Shown: piece by piece, positions 7,635 through 16,503 of the stretch | How the letters are laid out: every line of letters starts with the position of its first letter | Position numbering within the stretch: the first letter of the stretch is position 1 | Assembly: GCA_025356015.1 (NCBI GenBank) | Contig: JANXYO010000137.1 | Location: 1 to 37,683 of the forward strand | Length of the DNA: 37,683 nucleotides | DNA from: Spirochaetaceae bacterium | Lineage (GTDB): Bacteria; Spirochaetota; Spirochaetia; Treponematales; Rectinemataceae | Direction: 5' to 3' | Translations under genes and position numbers: made by a program | Notes under the pieces: model-generated | Told to the model about the DNA's origin: nothing | What the model saw: the letters and a program-made list of their open reading frames with translations, nothing else | The model's database searches: none

Positions 7635-8864
7635 CTAACGCGTGGTCTGGGCGTCCTTCCGGGCCTTCTCGATCTTCTGCATCTTGCGGTAGTACTCGGT
7701 CTGCTTCTCGACCTCGGAGACGTCGAGGAGCATGAACTTGTTCTCGGCGAGGCGGATCTTGTTGTTCTCGAGGAGCTTGCGGGTGACGAGGGTTCCCTCG
7801 TTGGCGGGGAGGCCCACCATGCCCACGAGCTCCTTGGGGCCGAAGTCGAAGGTGTAGGTGGCGCCCGGCCGCAGTGGAACCCTGTTGCGCTCGAGCTGCA
7901 TGAGCAGCGCGTCGTAGAGGCGGCCCACCGGATCGGAGATCAGGGTGTTGGCGAGCTGCTTGTAGATGAACCAGAGCCGCTCCGAGAGGAGGGTCGTCAG
8001 CCTCGTGACGATCTGGGGCTGGGTCGCGACCATGCGCTCGAAGTTGGCCTTGTTGACAGCGAGGAGGTAGGCGTCCTCGTAGGCCACGGCGTTGGCCGAT
8101 CTTGGCTTGTTCTCGAGGATGGCCATCTCGCCAAAGATGTCGCCAGACTTGAGCACCGCGAGGAGGACCTCGTTGTTGTCGACGATCTTGGTGATCTTCA
8201 CCGAGCCCTTCTGGATGATGTAGAGCTCGGAGCCGGGCATGCCCTCGCTGAACACCATGGTGTCCTTGGGGTAGAAGCGGTTGAACTCCTCGGTGGAGCC
8301 GTCGAGGTAGACAGCCTTGGAGTAGGGCTTGATCTTGGTCAGGCGCTCCTTGGCGACCTCGACGTGCTGTCCCGAGGGGCAGTGCTTGAGGTACTGGTAG
8401 TAGGCGTAGAAGGCCTGGTTGTACTGGTTCTGCTTGGCGTAGTACTCGCCGATGCGGAAGAGGTGGGAGGGATCGGCCTCGGCGGTGCTCTTGAGGGTGA
8501 TGCGTGTGAGGGCCTCGTCGAGGAAGCGCATGCGCTTCGAGAAGGCCATGATGATCTTCATGGCGACCGGGGTGTTCTTCTCGATGAGGAGGCCGTACTG
8601 GTCGCGGTGCACCGAGATCAGGGTGACGTCGGTCATCGCCTGGGCGGTCTCGATGTGGCTGTGGTTCGACATGGTTGAGACGACGCCGAAGAAATCGCCG
8701 GGTCCGAGGACGCCGCCCTCTTCTTCGACGACCTCTACTTCCTTGGACACCCGCACCTTGCCCTGTCGGATGATGTAGAACCTGTCGGCGTTCTGCTTCC
8801 CCTCGACAATTATGTATGAGTCCTTCTTGAAGTTGACGAACGTTAGCTGGAGCGGACTTTCCAT
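7635..8864 (-). CDS. Crp/Fnr-like regulator with two cyclic-nucleotide-binding domains
   Basis: A 409-residue cytosolic protein with two cNMP-binding beta-barrels. Domain 1 (about 5-120) has a degenerate phosphate-binding cassette (GDFFGVVSTMSNHSHIETAQ, 57-76) with no conserved Glu-Arg pair. A helical, TPR-like stretch with many Tyr residues follows (about 133-180). Domain 2 (about 190-310) has a good cassette, GDIFGEMAILENKPRSANAV, with Glu246 and Arg255. The C-terminus (about 311-385) looks like a Crp winged helix. Proteins of this layout occur in treponemes. One functional and one degenerate nucleotide site is likely; the ligand is not known. The ribosome site AGGA and a near-consensus promoter precede it, and the QueG-like gene follows, probably co-transcribed. 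Confidence 0.87.
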   Translation of the reverse strand: MESPLQLTFVNFKKDSYIIVEGKQNADRFYIIRQGKVRVSKEVEVVEEEGGVLGPGDFFGVVSTMSNHSHIETAQAMTDVTLISVHRDQYGLLIEKNTPVAMKIIMAFSKRMRFLDEALTRITLKSTAEADPSHLFRIGEYYAKQNQYNQAFYAYYQYLKHCPSGQHVEVAKERLTKIKPYSKAVYLDGSTEEFNRFYPKDTMVFSEGMPGSELYIIQKGSVKITKIVDNNEVLLAVLKSGDIFGEMAILENKPRSANAVAYEDAYLLAVNKANFERMVATQPQIVTRLTTLLSERLWFIYKQLANTLISDPVGRLYDALLMQLERNRVPLRPGATYTFDFGPKELVGMVGLPANEGTLVTRKLLENNKIRLAENKFMLLDVSEVEKQTEYYRKMQKIEKARKDAQTTR

Positions 8865-9268: not shown

Positions 9269-10552
<1,284 letters not shown>

Positions 10553-10625: not shown

Positions 10626-12347
10626 TCAGTATAGCCCGGTCACTTCGACATCGCCCCAGAATGAGCTGTAGGCGTCGAGACCGCCCGAGGCTTCCTCGTA
10701 GAAATTCTGCAGCGACCAGCTCCTCTCCTTGACTGTCCTGCGGCCGTCGCTCGCCATAGGGGCGAGTGTGACTGTCCCCCGGGAGAAGGCGAGGTGGCGG
10801 TTGTCGAGGTTGCCAAGATAGCGCGAGCGCTCGTCCCAGGCCACGGCGACCCTGCCCGGTGAAGCACCCGTGCCCAGGACCGGGTCGAGGGGCACCCAGC
10901 CGAGACCGTAGAGGTAGATCTCGACCCAGTAGTGGCGCACGGCCTTCCGGCTCGAGTCGATGAGATAGCCGGCGACCGGCAGGGCCGGCACGCCCGCGGC
11001 CCGAAGGAGGGAGCAGCAGAGGAGGGCGTAGGAATAGGAGTCGGCGCTCCGGTGAGCCAGTGCGTCCTGGAGCCTCGGCCAGTTGCTTCCCTCCTTCCAG
11101 CCGATGTTCCTAAGCATCCAGTCCCAGACCAGACGGGTGGCCTTCCAGGGATTCCTCTCGCTGCCGACGATCCGCTTGGCGAGGCTCATGATCTCTGGCG
11201 CCCCCGAGGCGATGCGGTCATCGGGGGCGGTGTAGGCGGCCATGAGGGCGGGTGGATCCTCGGGTGCTGCCTGCACCCGCTCGGAATCGACATCGGTCTC
11301 GACCGTATACACCGAGACGAGGAGGCTCTGGGTCAGGCTGAGGTCAGTCCCGGTCTGCAGGTCCTTGAGCCGGTAGAGGGCCGAGCCACGGTAGGAGGGC
11401 ACGAAGGGAGGCGGCTCCTGGGCGAGGACCCTGAGCAGTCTCTGGCCCGAGAAATCGGCAGGCAGGGGGACCCAGAGATAGAGCTCGTTCCCGCCCGAGG
11501 CCTTCACCTTGGTGATGCTGACGGTGTTGGAGATCGAATAGCTCCGTCTCTCGGTGAAACGCTTCGCCCCGGCGGGGCTGGTCACCCTGAAGAAGAGGCC
11601 GTTGCTCCTCCCCTTGGCGGCGATGACCGAGACCGCGCCCGATACGGCGCCGTCGGGAACCCTTACCTTGATCTGCTTGTCGGACCAGAGCTCGTAGCCC
11701 AGGTCGGTCTCGGCAAGCGAGACCGCTCCCGAGCCCGCGTCGTCGAGCTGGGGCCCCGGGCCGTTCTCGGGGCTCCAGGAGAAGGCCACCGAGCCCGTCT
11801 CCCGGCTGGCGCCGAAGTCCAGGCCATTGATGACAAGGAGGGAGCCGATGGGTCCGACCTCGGTGGAGAGCGAGGAGATGAGGGGCCCGCCCCGCCCGGA
11901 GCGGTCGCCCTCGGCCCTCACCGGGAGCCTGGCTCGGTTCATGAAGAGCTTGGGATTCGACCGGCCCGAGCGGGTCACGACGCGGACCAGGCCCGAATCC
12001 ACCGAGGCTGGCATGCGGACCGAGATCGAGCTGTCGTTCCAGGACAGGTAGGAGGCGCTCGTGGGGGAGACGCCGTCGAGCTCTACCGAGGAATCGCCCC
12101 GCTCAGTCCCGAAGCTCCTGCCCTCGATCCTGATGATGCCCCCCGGCTCGCCTATCGCGGGCTCGATGCGGTCTATCCTTGGCCTCGAGAGATAGCCGGC
12201 CGCCATGATGCCGGCCGTGAGGACGGCCGCCGCGGCCAGGCAGAACAGGAGGGCTGTCTTGAGCCGGCGCAGGGCCCTTCCCCTCGGTCTCGGGGCTGGG
12301 GCCCTTGTCGAGTGGATGGCATCGGCGGCTGGGAGTTCGAGCTTCAT
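10626..12347 (-). CDS. Membrane-anchored TIG/transglutaminase-like protein, nucleophile Cys replaced by Ser
   Basis: A 573-residue protein with a basic cytosolic N-terminus and one membrane segment (about 30-53), so most of it faces the periplasm. Two IPT/TIG-type Ig domains follow, starting at [20 protein letters not shown] (56-75) and [20 protein letters not shown] (155-174). A transglutaminase-like domain covers about 390-495. Its His and Asp are visible as H472 (RHYWVEIYL) and D488 (WVPLDP). The expected nucleophile position in [18 protein letters not shown] is Ser437, codon TCC, rather than Cys. Cys444 and Cys445 lie further along the helix. The gene may be catalytically dead or use Ser. 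It is the last gene of the sigma-factor operon; its ATG overlaps the preceding stop as ATGA. Confidence 0.85.
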
Positions 12348-12895
12348 TTCCTCGGCGCGTCGGGGCCGGGGGCGGGAGCTGCCTGAGGGGGATTCTGGGG
12401 CGGGTTCTGGCTTGGCTGGCTGTTCTGCGCAGGGACATCGCTGGCCTTGATGACCGATATCTCGACCCTGATCGGTGAGCTGCCATCGGCGGCGACCCCA
12501 AGGGGGTAGTAGTAGACCGATTCGCCGAAGTTCACGGAAACCGTGTCGATCCTGGTCCGGTAGGACATGCCGCCCTCGGTGCGGTGGACCCAGATCTGGG
12601 CCTGGGTCACCAGGGTCAGCTTCCCGGCGTCTGCGTAGAAGGGCGTCACCTGAACCAGGATCACGGCGTTCGTGCCGATGAGCTTGACGCTCACCGGACT
12701 GCCGGGAACCGTGTACTTCACGCTCTGCTCCCGCCAGGGAGCGGCCTCGCCCAAGGGAGGCAGGAGGGCGTCGACCCTCACGGCGAGGGCCTGGCCCTTG
12801 AGGGATTCCGGAAGGTCCTGGGCAATGCTACGGAAGGGTGCGATCGCGGCGAATCCTGCAAGGGCTAGGCCAAAAAGGAGGGGGGAGAGCCTCAA
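12344..12895 (-). CDS. Exported protein of unknown family in the sigma-factor operon
   Basis: A 183-residue protein with a clear signal peptide (hydrophobic stretch 5-20, cleavage probably near SIAQ-DL). The mature part (about 27-155) is beta-rich with alternating hydrophobic residues, for example SVKLIGTNAVILVQVTPFY and RTRIDTVSVNFGESVYYYPL. It ends in a Pro/Gln/Ala-rich low-complexity tail. I do not recognise a family. It overlaps both neighbours by four bases (ATGA-type junctions), so it is translated together with the anti-sigma factor and the TIG/transglutaminase-like protein. A periplasmic partner or sensor for one of them is an inference from location only. Confidence 0.8.
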   Translation of the reverse strand: MRLSPLLFGLALAGFAAIAPFRSIAQDLPESLKGQALAVRVDALLPPLGEAAPWREQSVKYTVPGSPVSVKLIGTNAVILVQVTPFYADAGKLTLVTQAQIWVHRTEGGMSYRTRIDTVSVNFGESVYYYPLGVAADGSSPIRVEISVIKASDVPAQNSQPSQNPPQNPPQAAPAPGPDAPRK

Positions 12896-13521
12896 TTATT
12901 CCCGTCCTTCTGGGCTCCGCCGCCGCCGTTGGCGCCAGGGGGGGCGAGGACAGGGGTTCCCGTCTGCGCCGATGCCCTCATGATCGTGGGGCTGCCCGTG
13001 GAATCGAAGGTCGCCCCCGAGGGAAGCCTTATGGTGAGGGTCACCTGGGCGTCCTTGGAATCAAGGTAGCGGAGCAGGGCGTCCATGCTGGCCGGAGCCG
13101 AGGCGGGCTGGGCCATCTCGGCCGTGGCTATCGCCGCCGCAGAGGGAAGGCGGGGCGATAGGACGCGGGAGGAAGCGATGCCGACCAGGAGAAGGAGGAC
13201 GGCAGCAGCCGCGAGCAGGGGCAGGGGCAGGGTGACACGGGCCGAAAACAGGGAGGGCCGAGCTGAGAAGCTGGAGGGCGAACGCGGCGCCCGCGAGCGG
13301 GCTGTGGTGAAAAGCGCCTCGATGCGGGAATCGAGCCTTCCCACCGCGGCCTGTTCGGCCTCGATGCCCTCCCGCCGGAGCTCGTCGCCGAGGCTTGAGA
13401 AGCGGGACACGGCCCCGGAACAGGCGAGGCAGGCCGAGAGGTGCTCGACTATGCGCTCGCGCCATGGGCTGGGCACTTCGCCGTCGACAAACGCGGAAAG
13501 GAGCTCCCTGTCAGGACACAT
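12892..13521 (-). CDS. Zinc-finger anti-sigma factor
   Basis: A 209-residue single-pass membrane protein. The N-terminus carries the ZAS/zf-HC2 signature H27-x3-C31-x2-C34 (EHLSACLACSG) after CPDRELLSAFVDGE, as in membrane-bound anti-sigma factors that hold an ECF sigma factor in the cytosol. One transmembrane helix is at about 98-117 (LPLPLLAAAAVLLLLVGIAS). The periplasmic part (118-209) is short, contains a beta-rich stretch (DAQVTLTIRLPSGATFDSTG) and ends in a Gly/Asn-rich tail. The start ATG 13521 lies inside the sigma-factor gene, 11 bases before its end, and matches the family N-terminus; the frame also reads further upstream, but those residues show no family match. Release by proteolysis or signal binding is family knowledge, not visible here. 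Confidence 0.9.
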   Translation of the reverse strand: MCPDRELLSAFVDGEVPSPWRERIVEHLSACLACSGAVSRFSSLGDELRREGIEAEQAAVGRLDSRIEALFTTARSRAPRSPSSFSARPSLFSARVTLPLPLLAAAAVLLLLVGIASSRVLSPRLPSAAAIATAEMAQPASAPASMDALLRYLDSKDAQVTLTIRLPSGATFDSTGSPTIMRASAQTGTPVLAPPGANGGGGAQKDGNN

Positions 13522-14071
13522 GTTTCGAATCCTCCCCGAGCTTCGCGAGGAGAGCCTCGCGGGCACGGAACGCCCGGACCTTGACATTGCCTTCGCTGAT
13601 GCCGAGCACCCGGCCGATCTCCTTGTAGCTCAAACCACCGTACTCCTTGAGGACGAGGACGGACCGGAGCTTGTCCGGCAGGCCGTCGAGGCCAGCCCTG
13701 AGCTCCTTCGCCGACTCTTCGCGGATCACGGTTTCGTCAGCCGGCCCCGCGCTGTCGCGCTCTCCCCGCCACCATCGCTCGTATGCCTTGACCTCGCGGC
13801 CCTTTCGCTTTGCGTAGTTCAAGGCCCCGTTCTTTACGACACGTATGAGCCAGAACTTCGCGTCGTCCAGGCTCGGAAAGACCATGCCTTTTTCTATCAT
13901 CCGGGCGAAGGCGTCGTGGACTATGTCCTCGGCCGCCTCGGTGCTCCCGGCGATGCGGAAAGCGACACGGACGAGCATGGGCCCGGCCGTGGCATAGAGC
14001 TTTCTGAGGCCTGCCTCATCCGGCGTCCCGCTCAAGGAAAACAACAGCGCTCTCCTCGGGTTACGCGCCAA
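13511..14071 (-). CDS. ECF-type RNA polymerase sigma factor
   Basis: A 186-residue extracytoplasmic-function sigma factor. Region 2 covers about 25-92, with AAEDIVHDAFARMIEKG at 46-62 and the promoter-melting segment FWLIRVVKNGALNYAKRKGR. Region 4 covers about 125-175 with the helix-turn-helix GLSYKEIGRVLGISEGNVKV (145-164). The start is a TTG with GAGGG five bases upstream; no in-frame ATG precedes region 2. The gene begins seven bases after the cysS stop and overlaps the anti-sigma gene by 11 bases, the usual arrangement of sigma/anti-sigma pairs. Targets are unknown; autoregulation is common in the family but no promoter copy was identified. Confidence 0.92.
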   Translation of the reverse strand: MARNPRRALLFSLSGTPDEAGLRKLYATAGPMLVRVAFRIAGSTEAAEDIVHDAFARMIEKGMVFPSLDDAKFWLIRVVKNGALNYAKRKGREVKAYERWWRGERDSAGPADETVIREESAKELRAGLDGLPDKLRSVLVLKEYGGLSYKEIGRVLGISEGNVKVRAFRAREALLAKLGEDSKHVS

Positions 14072-14078
14072 GCTGCCC

Positions 14079-15503
14079 TCATGCGCGCTTCCAGGTCGTG
14101 CCTGAGCCTGAATCCTCGAGGAGGACTCCCTTTTCCTTGAGCTCGGCGCGCAGGGCGTCGGCCCTGGCCCAGTCCTTCGCTGCCTTCGCCGCAGACCTCT
14201 CGGCTATGCGCTCCTCGATCCAGGCCGAGAAACCGGCCTCGACGGGGGCTCGTTCGGCCGCTGCCAGGGACTCGAGGGCGAGGCCGAGGACCTTGTCCAT
14301 CTCGAAGGCCCCGGCGAGTGCCTCGCCCGAGGGGATCGCCGGATCGCGCAGGAGGCCCCAAAGTTCGGCGAGGGCCCGTGGCGTCGCAAGGTCCTGGGCC
14401 AGGTGGCCGGCGAATGCTTCCATATAGCTGTGCGCGGCGGGTCCCGGCTCGGGAAGGGGGCCTCGCCCCGCCTTCTCCCTCAGGGCCAGGATGCGCTCGC
14501 CCAGGGACCTGCGGGCCGAGCGCGCAGAGTCCAGGCCCTCGTAGGAGAACTGGGCCTGGGAGCGGTAGTGGGCACCGAGGAGGAAGTAGCGGTAATCGAG
14601 GGCCTCGTAGCCCGCGTCGATGAGGGTCTGCAGGGTGAGGAAGCCGCCCGAGGACTTGGACATCTTTACCTTGTCCATGATGATGAACTCGTTGTGGATC
14701 CAGTAGTTGACCCACTTCCTTCCAGTGGCGGCCTCGCTCTGGGCTATCTCGTTGGTGTGGTGGATGGGGATGTGGTCGATGCCCCCCGCGTGTATGTCGA
14801 TCTGCTCGCCCAGGTACTTCATGCTCATCGCCGAGCACTCGATGTGCCAGCCCGGGTAGCCCCTTCCCCAGGGGCTGTCCCAGACCATCGCCTGGTTCTC
14901 GAACTTGGACTTGGTGAACCAGAGGGCGAAATCGGCTGGGTTGCGCTTGTTGGGGTCGATTTCGATTCGCGCCCCGGCCTTGAGCTCATCGAGCTTGATG
15001 AGGGCGAGCTCCCCGTAGCTCGGGAACCTGGTCACGTCGAAGTAGAGGTTCCCGCCGGCGCTGTAGGTGTAGCCCCTCGCCTCGATCCGCCCTATGAGCT
15101 CGATCATCTCGCCTATGTGCTCCGTGGCCTTGCAGACCACGGTGGGCTTCAGGATGTTCATCCTCTCGACATCCCTGAAAAAGGCCTGGGTGTAGAAATC
15201 GGCGACCTCGAGGACGCTCTTGCCCCTCTCGATCGCGCTCCTGAGCATCTTGTCCTCCCCCGTGTCGTCATCGCCCGAGAGGTGGCCCACGTCGGTGATG
15301 TTCATCACATGGGTGACCTCGAAGCCGAAGGAGCGCAGGACGCGCACGAGGGTGTCGTGGAGCAGATAGGGACGGAGGTTGCCGATATGGGCGAAATTGT
15401 AGACCGTGGGACCGCAGCCGTAGAAGCCGACCTTGCCCGGGACGATCGGCCTGAACTCCTGGAGCTCGCGGCCGAGGGTGTTGAAGAGCTTCATGGTCGG
15501 CAT
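14079..15503 (-). CDS. cysS: Cysteine--tRNA ligase
   Basis: Class I aminoacyl-tRNA synthetase that charges tRNA-Cys; 474 residues from the chosen start, a normal length. Signatures are [14 protein letters not shown] with the HIGH-type HIGN at 39-42 and zinc ligand Cys30, the zinc-site segments WHIECSAMS and [15 protein letters not shown], and the KMSKS loop ([11 protein letters not shown]). A C-terminal helical domain ends in an anticodon-binding tail. ATG 15503 was chosen because GGAGGA lies four bases upstream and the family start fits ([10 protein letters not shown]). The frame could be extended to 15596, but this would run into the divergent murB gene. The sigma-factor operon follows without a gap. 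Confidence 0.96.
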
Positions 15504-15525
15504 GCATTCCTCCGGCAGCGCCTTG

Positions 15526-15555
15526 TTGCCGTCCCTCGGTGCGAACGGGTAGTAT
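15526..15555 (+). promoter_or_regulatory. Candidate promoter giving a leaderless murB transcript
   Basis: TTGCCG (15526-15531), an 18-bp spacer and TAGTAT (15550-15555). Only six bases separate the -10 from the murB ATG at 15562. The predicted transcription start falls on or next to the A of the start codon. No Shine-Dalgarno sequence precedes murB, which fits a leaderless message. Confidence 0.4.
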
Positions 15556-15561
15556 CGATAC

Positions 15562-16503
15562 ATGGCGACAGTACGGGACTTCCTCGAAAAAATCAATATA
15601 AGGGCTCACATCGCCCTTTCCGAGCCCATGGCGGCCCACACCAGCTTCGCCATCGGCGGCCCGGCCGATGCCCTGGTGCGTCCCCGGGACCCTGGATCGG
15701 CTGCCGTCCTTCTCGCGGGGGCGAGGGCCGAGGGCATACCCCTCTTCCTCCTGGGCGCCGGGGCGAACATCCTGGTGGGCGACCGCGGCATACGGGGCAT
15801 AGTCCTGGACAGCTTCGCCCTTAGGGCGGTCGCGCCCGGGGGGCCCGGACCGGGCCGGGGGAAGGTCCTCGTGGCCGAGGCCGGCCTCCCCATGGACGAG
15901 CTCTGCCTCGAGGCCCTGGCTCGCGGCCTCGGCGGCCTCGAGAGCTTCGCGGGCATGCCGGGCTCGGTCGGCGGCTCGGTCTTCATGAACGCGCGCTGCT
16001 ACGAGCGCGAGCTGTCCGAGCTCCTCCTCTGGGTCGAGGCCCTCCTGGCCGACGGCCGGACTGAAAGGATAGCCATGCGCCGCGAGGAATGGGGCTACAA
16101 GCGCTCGCCCTTCATGCCGGGGGGCTCCTGCTCCGGCGCCTTCATCCTCAGGGCCGCCTTCGGCCTCGAGCCAGCCGATCCCCCCGCCCTCGCCTGTGTG
16201 ATGCGCGGCAGGCGAGCCGACCGCGAGGCGAAGGGCCACTACCGCCTGCCCTCGGCCGGATCGGTCTTCAAGAACGACAGGAGCCTGGGCAGGCCGACGG
16301 GGAAGCTCCTCGACGAGCTGGGCCTTCGCGGCAGGAGGATAGGCGGGGCCATGGTCTCGCCCTGGCACGCCAACATCTTCGTGAACGCGGGAGGGGCGAG
16401 CGCCGCCGACATGATGGCCCTCGTCGAGCTCGCTATGGGCGAGGCGAACAGGGCCTTCGAGGCGAGGCTTGAGAACGAGGTGATCTTCGTCGGCGAGTTC
16501 TAG
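15562..16503 (+). CDS. murB: UDP-N-acetylenolpyruvoylglucosamine reductase
   Basis: FAD- and NADPH-dependent enzyme that makes UDP-N-acetylmuramate in the second committed step of peptidoglycan synthesis; cytosolic, 313 residues. Visible motifs are HTSFAIGGPAD, the FAD-binding GAGANILVGD (65-74) and GMPGSVGGSVFMNARCY (131-147). Catalytic Ser234 is in LPSAGSVFKN, and the C-terminal catalytic Glu306 is in LENEVIFVG. The short length and SVFKN form suggest the type II (Staphylococcus-like) subclass. It is divergent from cysS with 58 bp between the starts, and no ribosome site is visible. Confidence 0.97.
   Translation: MATVRDFLEKINIRAHIALSEPMAAHTSFAIGGPADALVRPRDPGSAAVLLAGARAEGIPLFLLGAGANILVGDRGIRGIVLDSFALRAVAPGGPGPGRGKVLVAEAGLPMDELCLEALARGLGGLESFAGMPGSVGGSVFMNARCYERELSELLLWVEALLADGRTERIAMRREEWGYKRSPFMPGGSCSGAFILRAAFGLEPADPPALACVMRGRRADREAKGHYRLPSAGSVFKNDRSLGRPTGKLLDELGLRGRRIGGAMVSPWHANIFVNAGGASAADMMALVELAMGEANRAFEARLENEVIFVGEF

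Follow-up and report, generated by a model that had tools for sequence, protein, structure and literature searches.

Can a transglutaminase-like domain that carries serine in place of its catalytic cysteine still work as an enzyme and, if it cannot, what is the protein for? The question is raised by a gene of a Spirochaetaceae bacterium (assembly GCA_025356015.1) located in the window analysed here, i.e. the whole stretch of 37,683 nucleotides of contig JANXYO010000137.1, forward strand. A first-pass annotation made from the sequence had proposed either a dead scaffold or a serine-nucleophile variant, and had favoured a sensing or structural job at the end of a sigma/anti-sigma operon.

Architecture and predicted fold of the transglutaminase-like protein

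The gene (positions 10,626-12,347, minus strand) encodes a protein of 573 amino acids with the domain order membrane helix, TIG, TIG, beta domain, Transglut_core and C-terminal segment. The open reading frame and the two TIG domains of the first-pass annotation were borne out by the ORF check and by Pfam, and an AlphaFold model built from an input of 69 sequences reached a mean pLDDT of 89.7. The N-terminal membrane helix (residues 24-54; 12,186-12,278, minus strand) is a helix in this model; in many relatives a lipobox signal takes its place (60 of 202 matches with a simple pattern, same-genome duplicates counted). It is followed by the first TIG domain (residues 56-126; 11,970-12,182, minus strand), which matched the TIG domain of cyclodextrin glycosyltransferases (CGTases) in a structure comparison (Z about 14). 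The second TIG domain (about residues 155-256; 11,580-11,885, minus strand) was delimited by a second Pfam TIG stretch and the strands of the model, and the beta domain preceding the core (about residues 260-353; 11,289-11,570, minus strand) by model strands and the alignment of model residues 263-573 with the solved structure 3isr.

The Transglut_core domain (residues 388-489; 10,881-11,186, minus strand) matched Pfam PF01841 with an E-value of 2.4e-15 and 57.1 bits against a Pfam cut-off of 23, and was recovered at the same place of the protein when the whole genome was searched. The model superposed on 3isr with a Z-score of 18.9 and an rmsd of 3.5 Å over 256 residues, giving a papain-like transglutaminase fold. 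The protein is thus a PF01841 member by sequence as well as by fold, and lacks the defining catalytic feature of the active members: Ser437 (codon TCC; 11,037-11,039, minus strand) occupies the site of the catalytic Cys according to the codon check, the model and the profile alignment, whereas His472 (10,932-10,934, minus strand) and Asp488 (10,884-10,886, minus strand) of the triad are present. All these residue and codon positions agreed with the first-pass annotation. A family motif located after the triad (residues 509-524; 10,776-10,823, minus strand) was recognized in the alignments and is common to Cys-bearing TIG-transglutaminases of another spirochaete class. Two further weak Transglut_core matches above the Pfam cut-off were found in the same genome (C132:435-728 and C138:148507-148710).

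Position and variability of residue 437

In the transglutaminase fold, the canonical position of the nucleophile is the start of a helix. When a profile of 22 relatives was aligned with the solved enzymes 3isr and TgpA (6g49), the family's 'gds' fell on GVC and GFC, with the Ser on the motif Cys, and in the AlphaFold model the helix 437-450 begins exactly at residue 437. Alignment and model alike therefore identify residue 437 as the nucleophile position, and they indirectly answer the possibility that Cys444 or Cys445 (both codons TGC) would lie next to His472 instead.

The order was represented by 59 genomes, of which 57 (33 of 34 genera) yielded relatives in a protein search with the 573-amino acid sequence; the two genomes without a match were an 82%-complete one and a 1.14-Mb T. 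pallidum-like one. A profile search extended the family to other orders of the class Spirochaetia and to Borrelia-like genomes. The eighty named loci from the contig search, which was seeded by a 10-row alignment, belonged mostly to Treponema and Spirochaetes MAGs, plus Breznakiella homolactica, which has Ala at 437. No relatives were found among the viral contigs searched for a viral origin. All matches were aligned to the family profile, on which the assignment of residue 437 depends in the most divergent members.

Among 159 distinct orthologues of the class Spirochaetia, column 437 held Ser in 58, Ala in 46, Pro in 34, Thr in 7, Met in 5, Ile in 3, Asn in 3, Val in 2 and Gly in 1. Cysteine, which would have spoken against the first-pass reading, was present in none. 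On a quick FastTree tree built without column 437, with parsimony changes counted over 531 columns, this column changed 45 times, exactly as the median column. On the same tree His472 changed three times and Trp484 twice, and Gly460, Trp474 and Asp488 never. As column 437 changes like a median column, whereas the other pocket residues hardly vary, no nucleophile constraint acts at this site. His472 was kept in 153 of the 159 orthologues and Asp488 in all of them; in the six orthologues with Tyr for His472, residue 437 was Ser in five and Asn in one. Ala occupies position 437 in the closest relative recovered, at 62-64% identity, and two proteins 95.7% identical to each other differ at this site, with Pro (CCC) in L110 and Ser (TCC) in L137.

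Purifying selection on the gene is indicated by dN/dS values of 0.06-0.29 in 14 close pairs, two of which are the same genomes fetched twice. These values, together with a non-Cys residue at the site in all relatives, ruled out a sequencing error or a pseudogene. A column scan of the 159 orthologues for other nucleophile candidates revealed no further Cys or Thr conserved above 80%, and the conserved Ser columns (130, 248, 522 and 562) lie within the TIG domains (two) or after the triad (two), none of them at the helix start. The opening turn of a helix readily accommodates Ser, Ala, Pro and Thr, which adequately explains the frequency of Ser at 437. On the evidence of the alignments, Ser437 is a helix-start residue, one of many fillers of the position, and not a nucleophile.

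Cysteine-bearing relatives and alternative nucleophiles

Seventeen more distant proteins carry Cys at the nucleophile column. Two of the genomes concerned, from another class of the phylum (L187, G127:C587; L190, G109:C97), encode transglutaminases with a GDC motif and, like the Spirochaetia family, the C-terminal motif YFGNxDNxHIAFSxG; the TIG domain was confirmed in the L187 protein, and Cys-bearing genes stand in tandem in this locus. Judging from their sequences, proteins of the L187/L190 type are likely the intact sister form and a living likeness of the ancestor. A binary count of Cys versus non-Cys gave two changes on the quick tree, which is unrooted and contains one oddly placed long branch (L218). 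The most likely scenario from these sequences is a single loss of Cys basal to the Spirochaetia family, the direction of change being inferred.

The serine-nucleophile variant would be a Ser-His-Asp transglutaminase or hydrolase working through Ser437. It would fit the status of Ser as the commonest residue of the column and the retention of His and Asp, and papain-like families with a conserved Ser for Cys have been discussed as possibly active (PMC10318531). Menin, DUF2145, DUF2272 and DUF3750 resemble the spirochaete family in having a non-Cys residue at the nucleophile site and keeping the other two residues (PMC10318531). However, their Ser is conserved, whereas the spirochaete site is variable, Ser (58/159) having given way many times to Ala, Pro, Met, Ile and Val; the sequences thus place the spirochaete protein outside these Ser-for-Cys papain-like families. 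The conservation of Ser437 in orthologues, which the first-pass annotation had proposed as a check, therefore turned out low, and the Ser/Pro swap at 96% identity, the Ala of the nearest relative and the persistence of Ser in most orthologues without His472 point the same way. Since a nucleophile would be conserved and column 437 is not, this reading was rejected as a function of the family and can be regarded as extremely improbable. A nucleophile relocated to Cys445 (or Cys444) has a practically negligible likelihood. Both cysteines are present in the 573-amino acid protein and Cys445 recurs in 90 of the 159 orthologues, but the remaining orthologues have Thr, Ala, Val, Asn or Ser there, and Cys444 occurs in only 2 of the 159; moreover, the intact enzymes of L187, L190 and L218 possess Cys at 445 in addition to the catalytic Cys, and in the model Cys445 lies two turns farther along the helix. 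The dead-scaffold half of the first-pass proposal is thereby supported, with orthologues lacking Cys at 437 and swapping Ser freely for Ala, Pro, Thr, Met, Ile and others, and a non-catalytic protein is close to certain.

Genomic context and its exceptions

The gene belongs to a sigma/anti-sigma cluster, as the first-pass annotation had stated, and both the Pfam assignments of the neighbours and their conserved order confirmed this; the cluster is encoded on the minus strand. Upstream lie U183 (12,344-12,895, minus strand), an exported beta-sandwich protein whose start overlaps or abuts its neighbours (model pLDDT 83; upstream in 71 of 71 loci), a conserved zf-HC2 anti-sigma factor with one membrane helix (12,892-13,587, minus strand; Pfam PF13490, NCBIfam anti-sigma below cut-off), a conserved ECF sigma factor (13,511-14,071, minus strand; Pfam Sigma70_r2 and r4_2) and cysS (14,079-15,596, minus strand; Pfam tRNA-synt_1e), which was upstream of the sigma factor in 57 of 60 loci. 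Downstream lies glyA (9,269-10,552, minus strand; Pfam SHMT), which occupies this place in 12 of the 52 loci and also in the Borrelia-like genomes. The position at the operon end is less certain, as glyA lies 73 bp further on in the same orientation and the transcript may run on. ECF sigma, anti-sigma, U183 and pseudo-transglutaminase genes were in this order on the same strand in all 71 loci that had 2 kb or more of upstream sequence, and the same gene order was also found in other orders of the class. A promoter scan across the cluster found none.

Several observations concern the neighbours themselves. The sigma and anti-sigma ORFs share 77 bp (13,511-13,587) if the anti-sigma factor begins at its first ATG; a later Met start (MCPDRELL) would suit the orthologues better. 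The U183 family had no Pfam, NCBIfam or PHROG match. The U183 model resembled the C-domain of T2SS/T3SS/T4P secretins (Z 8.5-10.5, 27 of the top 28 rows). An assignment as a secretin domain was rejected, as the match was one of fold only, none of 53 members had a Pfam secretin match and comparing profiles between U183 and same-clade secretins gave a negative result. A two-domain cyclic-nucleotide-binding (CRP-like) regulator is encoded two genes downstream of the pseudo-transglutaminase (7,635-8,864, minus strand), and such a regulator recurs downstream of the gene in other orders of the class.

The cluster is broken in some lineages. One examined genus (L079, and L243, which bears the T. pallidum genus code) lacks U183, so that the anti-sigma gene is directly followed by the pseudo-transglutaminase. 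Borrelia-like genomes (906-kb chromosome, murB-cysS-X-glyA) kept the pseudo-transglutaminase between cysS and glyA; sigma, anti-sigma and U183 are absent from the locus, and no relative of the sigma factor was detectable in these genomes. In the Borrelia-like loci (L240, 2,852-4,414; L241; L242), the gene appears squeezed between cysS and glyA like the scar of an ancestral operon. Conversely, the T. pallidum-like genome kept cysS, sigma and anti-sigma (L239, 4,018-5,254) and has pta where its relatives have U183 and the pseudo-transglutaminase. The sigma-24 of T. pallidum is TP0092 (PMC4368718), and the T. pallidum-like locus would correspond to the TP0092 locus. At the loci read in five genomes of family f13, cysS, sigma and anti-sigma were followed by unrelated genes, and the sigma factor was found in 16 of the 18 searched genomes of f13 and f16. 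The pseudo-transglutaminase is thus separable from the sigma cluster in both directions, and it follows that neither needs the other in those lineages. An obligate component of an ECF sigma/anti-sigma system would share its operon, as in 71 of 71 loci, and never occur apart from it, contrary to what was found; since the link is broken both ways in other lineages, an obligate sensing role is weakened.

Functional interpretation and related proteins

The family shares its fold, the His and Asp of the triad and the motif HxWxE...GWxxxD with 3isr of Cytophaga hutchinsonii and TgpA of Pseudomonas aeruginosa, and with TgpA also the membrane-anchored periplasmic domain (PMC3507681). It differs from both by the lack of the catalytic Cys (0/159), by its two TIG domains and by its sigma/anti-sigma neighbourhood. 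Most known transglutaminase domains without enzymatic activity are eukaryotic, e.g. Cyk3, EPB42 and FBXO21 (PMC10318531, PMC4758748). The transglutaminase-like domain of fungal Cyk3 has no Cys but retains His and Asp across orthologues; it needs both for its function and activates chitin synthase (PMC4758748). By contrast with the spirochaete protein, Cyk3 is a cytoplasmic cytokinesis protein with an SH3 domain and a chitin synthase regulator, and no kinship beyond the fold is claimed; the spirochaete protein may work like Cyk3 without being a member of the Cyk3 type.

Taken as a whole, the protein is very probably a class-wide pseudo-transglutaminase, a non-catalytic envelope scaffold or binding protein that uses its His-Asp pocket and whose Cys was lost in the common ancestor. 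Anchored in the membrane and facing outward, it would have kept its transglutaminase-fold domain as a non-catalytic module after the loss of Cys. The pocket, together with both TIG domains, may bind an envelope partner, either a peptide or an enzyme of the cell wall, and the architecture and the eukaryotic precedent suggest a scaffold or allosteric regulator acting as the Cys-less Cyk3 domain does on chitin synthase. The protein would be made together with the ECF sigma/anti-sigma pair, which probably answers envelope stress. Pocket binding, for which Cyk3 provides the analogy, is clearly less secure than the absence of catalysis, and the conservation of His and Asp could also reflect plain fold stability.

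Two other readings concern this pocket-binding part and overlap with the preferred explanation. The protein might be a periplasmic sensor or co-regulator in which ligand binding to the dead pocket releases or shields the anti-sigma factor, thereby switching the ECF sigma factor. The order fixed with sigma and anti-sigma in 71 of 71 loci and reaching other orders of the class, the membrane anchor and the exported domains fit such a role, which is nevertheless doubtful given the Borrelia-like genomes with the gene and no sigma factor and the T. pallidum-like and f13 genomes with the sigma factor and no gene. Alternatively, the domain would be a mere structural spacer with an unused pocket, His, Trp and Asp being kept for fold stability. 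Trp474, Trp484 and Gly460 are indeed conserved in addition to the triad residues, but a spacer would not require the nucleophile's two polar partners to be retained almost completely once the nucleophile itself was gone, and the same two residues are functionally required in Cyk3 (PMC4758748), so that this reading is rather unlikely. The preferred non-catalytic scaffold could also be extended to a bacterial counterpart of Cyk3, in which the His-Asp pocket would be a periplasmic receptor gating the ECF sigma/anti-sigma switch (T. pallidum sigma-24 operon type), with a second, sigma-independent envelope role in Borrelia; this extension is speculative and improbable as a whole.

No earlier description of a spirochaete TIG-transglutaminase family was found in the open-licence literature searched. 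The family indicates that a bacterial class kept a dead transglutaminase across genera, in a fixed operon with a sigma factor of the envelope-stress type. It also provides a clean case of triad decay, with one residue lost and two frozen, in which the use of the dead active site is open to testing. Labels of an active transglutaminase or a cysteine protease, which the gene is likely to bear, are thereby corrected.

Apparent orthologues are present in Lyme-disease spirochaetes, where the gene is hypothetical or mis-labelled as a 'CGTase domain' protein. BB0600 of Borrelia burgdorferi, a TIG-containing protein encoded between cysS and glyA, is likely the Borrelia orthologue according to its TIG domain and its locus, which differs from that of the window by lacking sigma, anti-sigma and U183. 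The gene bb0600 has been listed as having a 'CGTase' domain (PMC2845121), a label that would be explained by the match of the family's TIG domain to the CGTase TIG domain.
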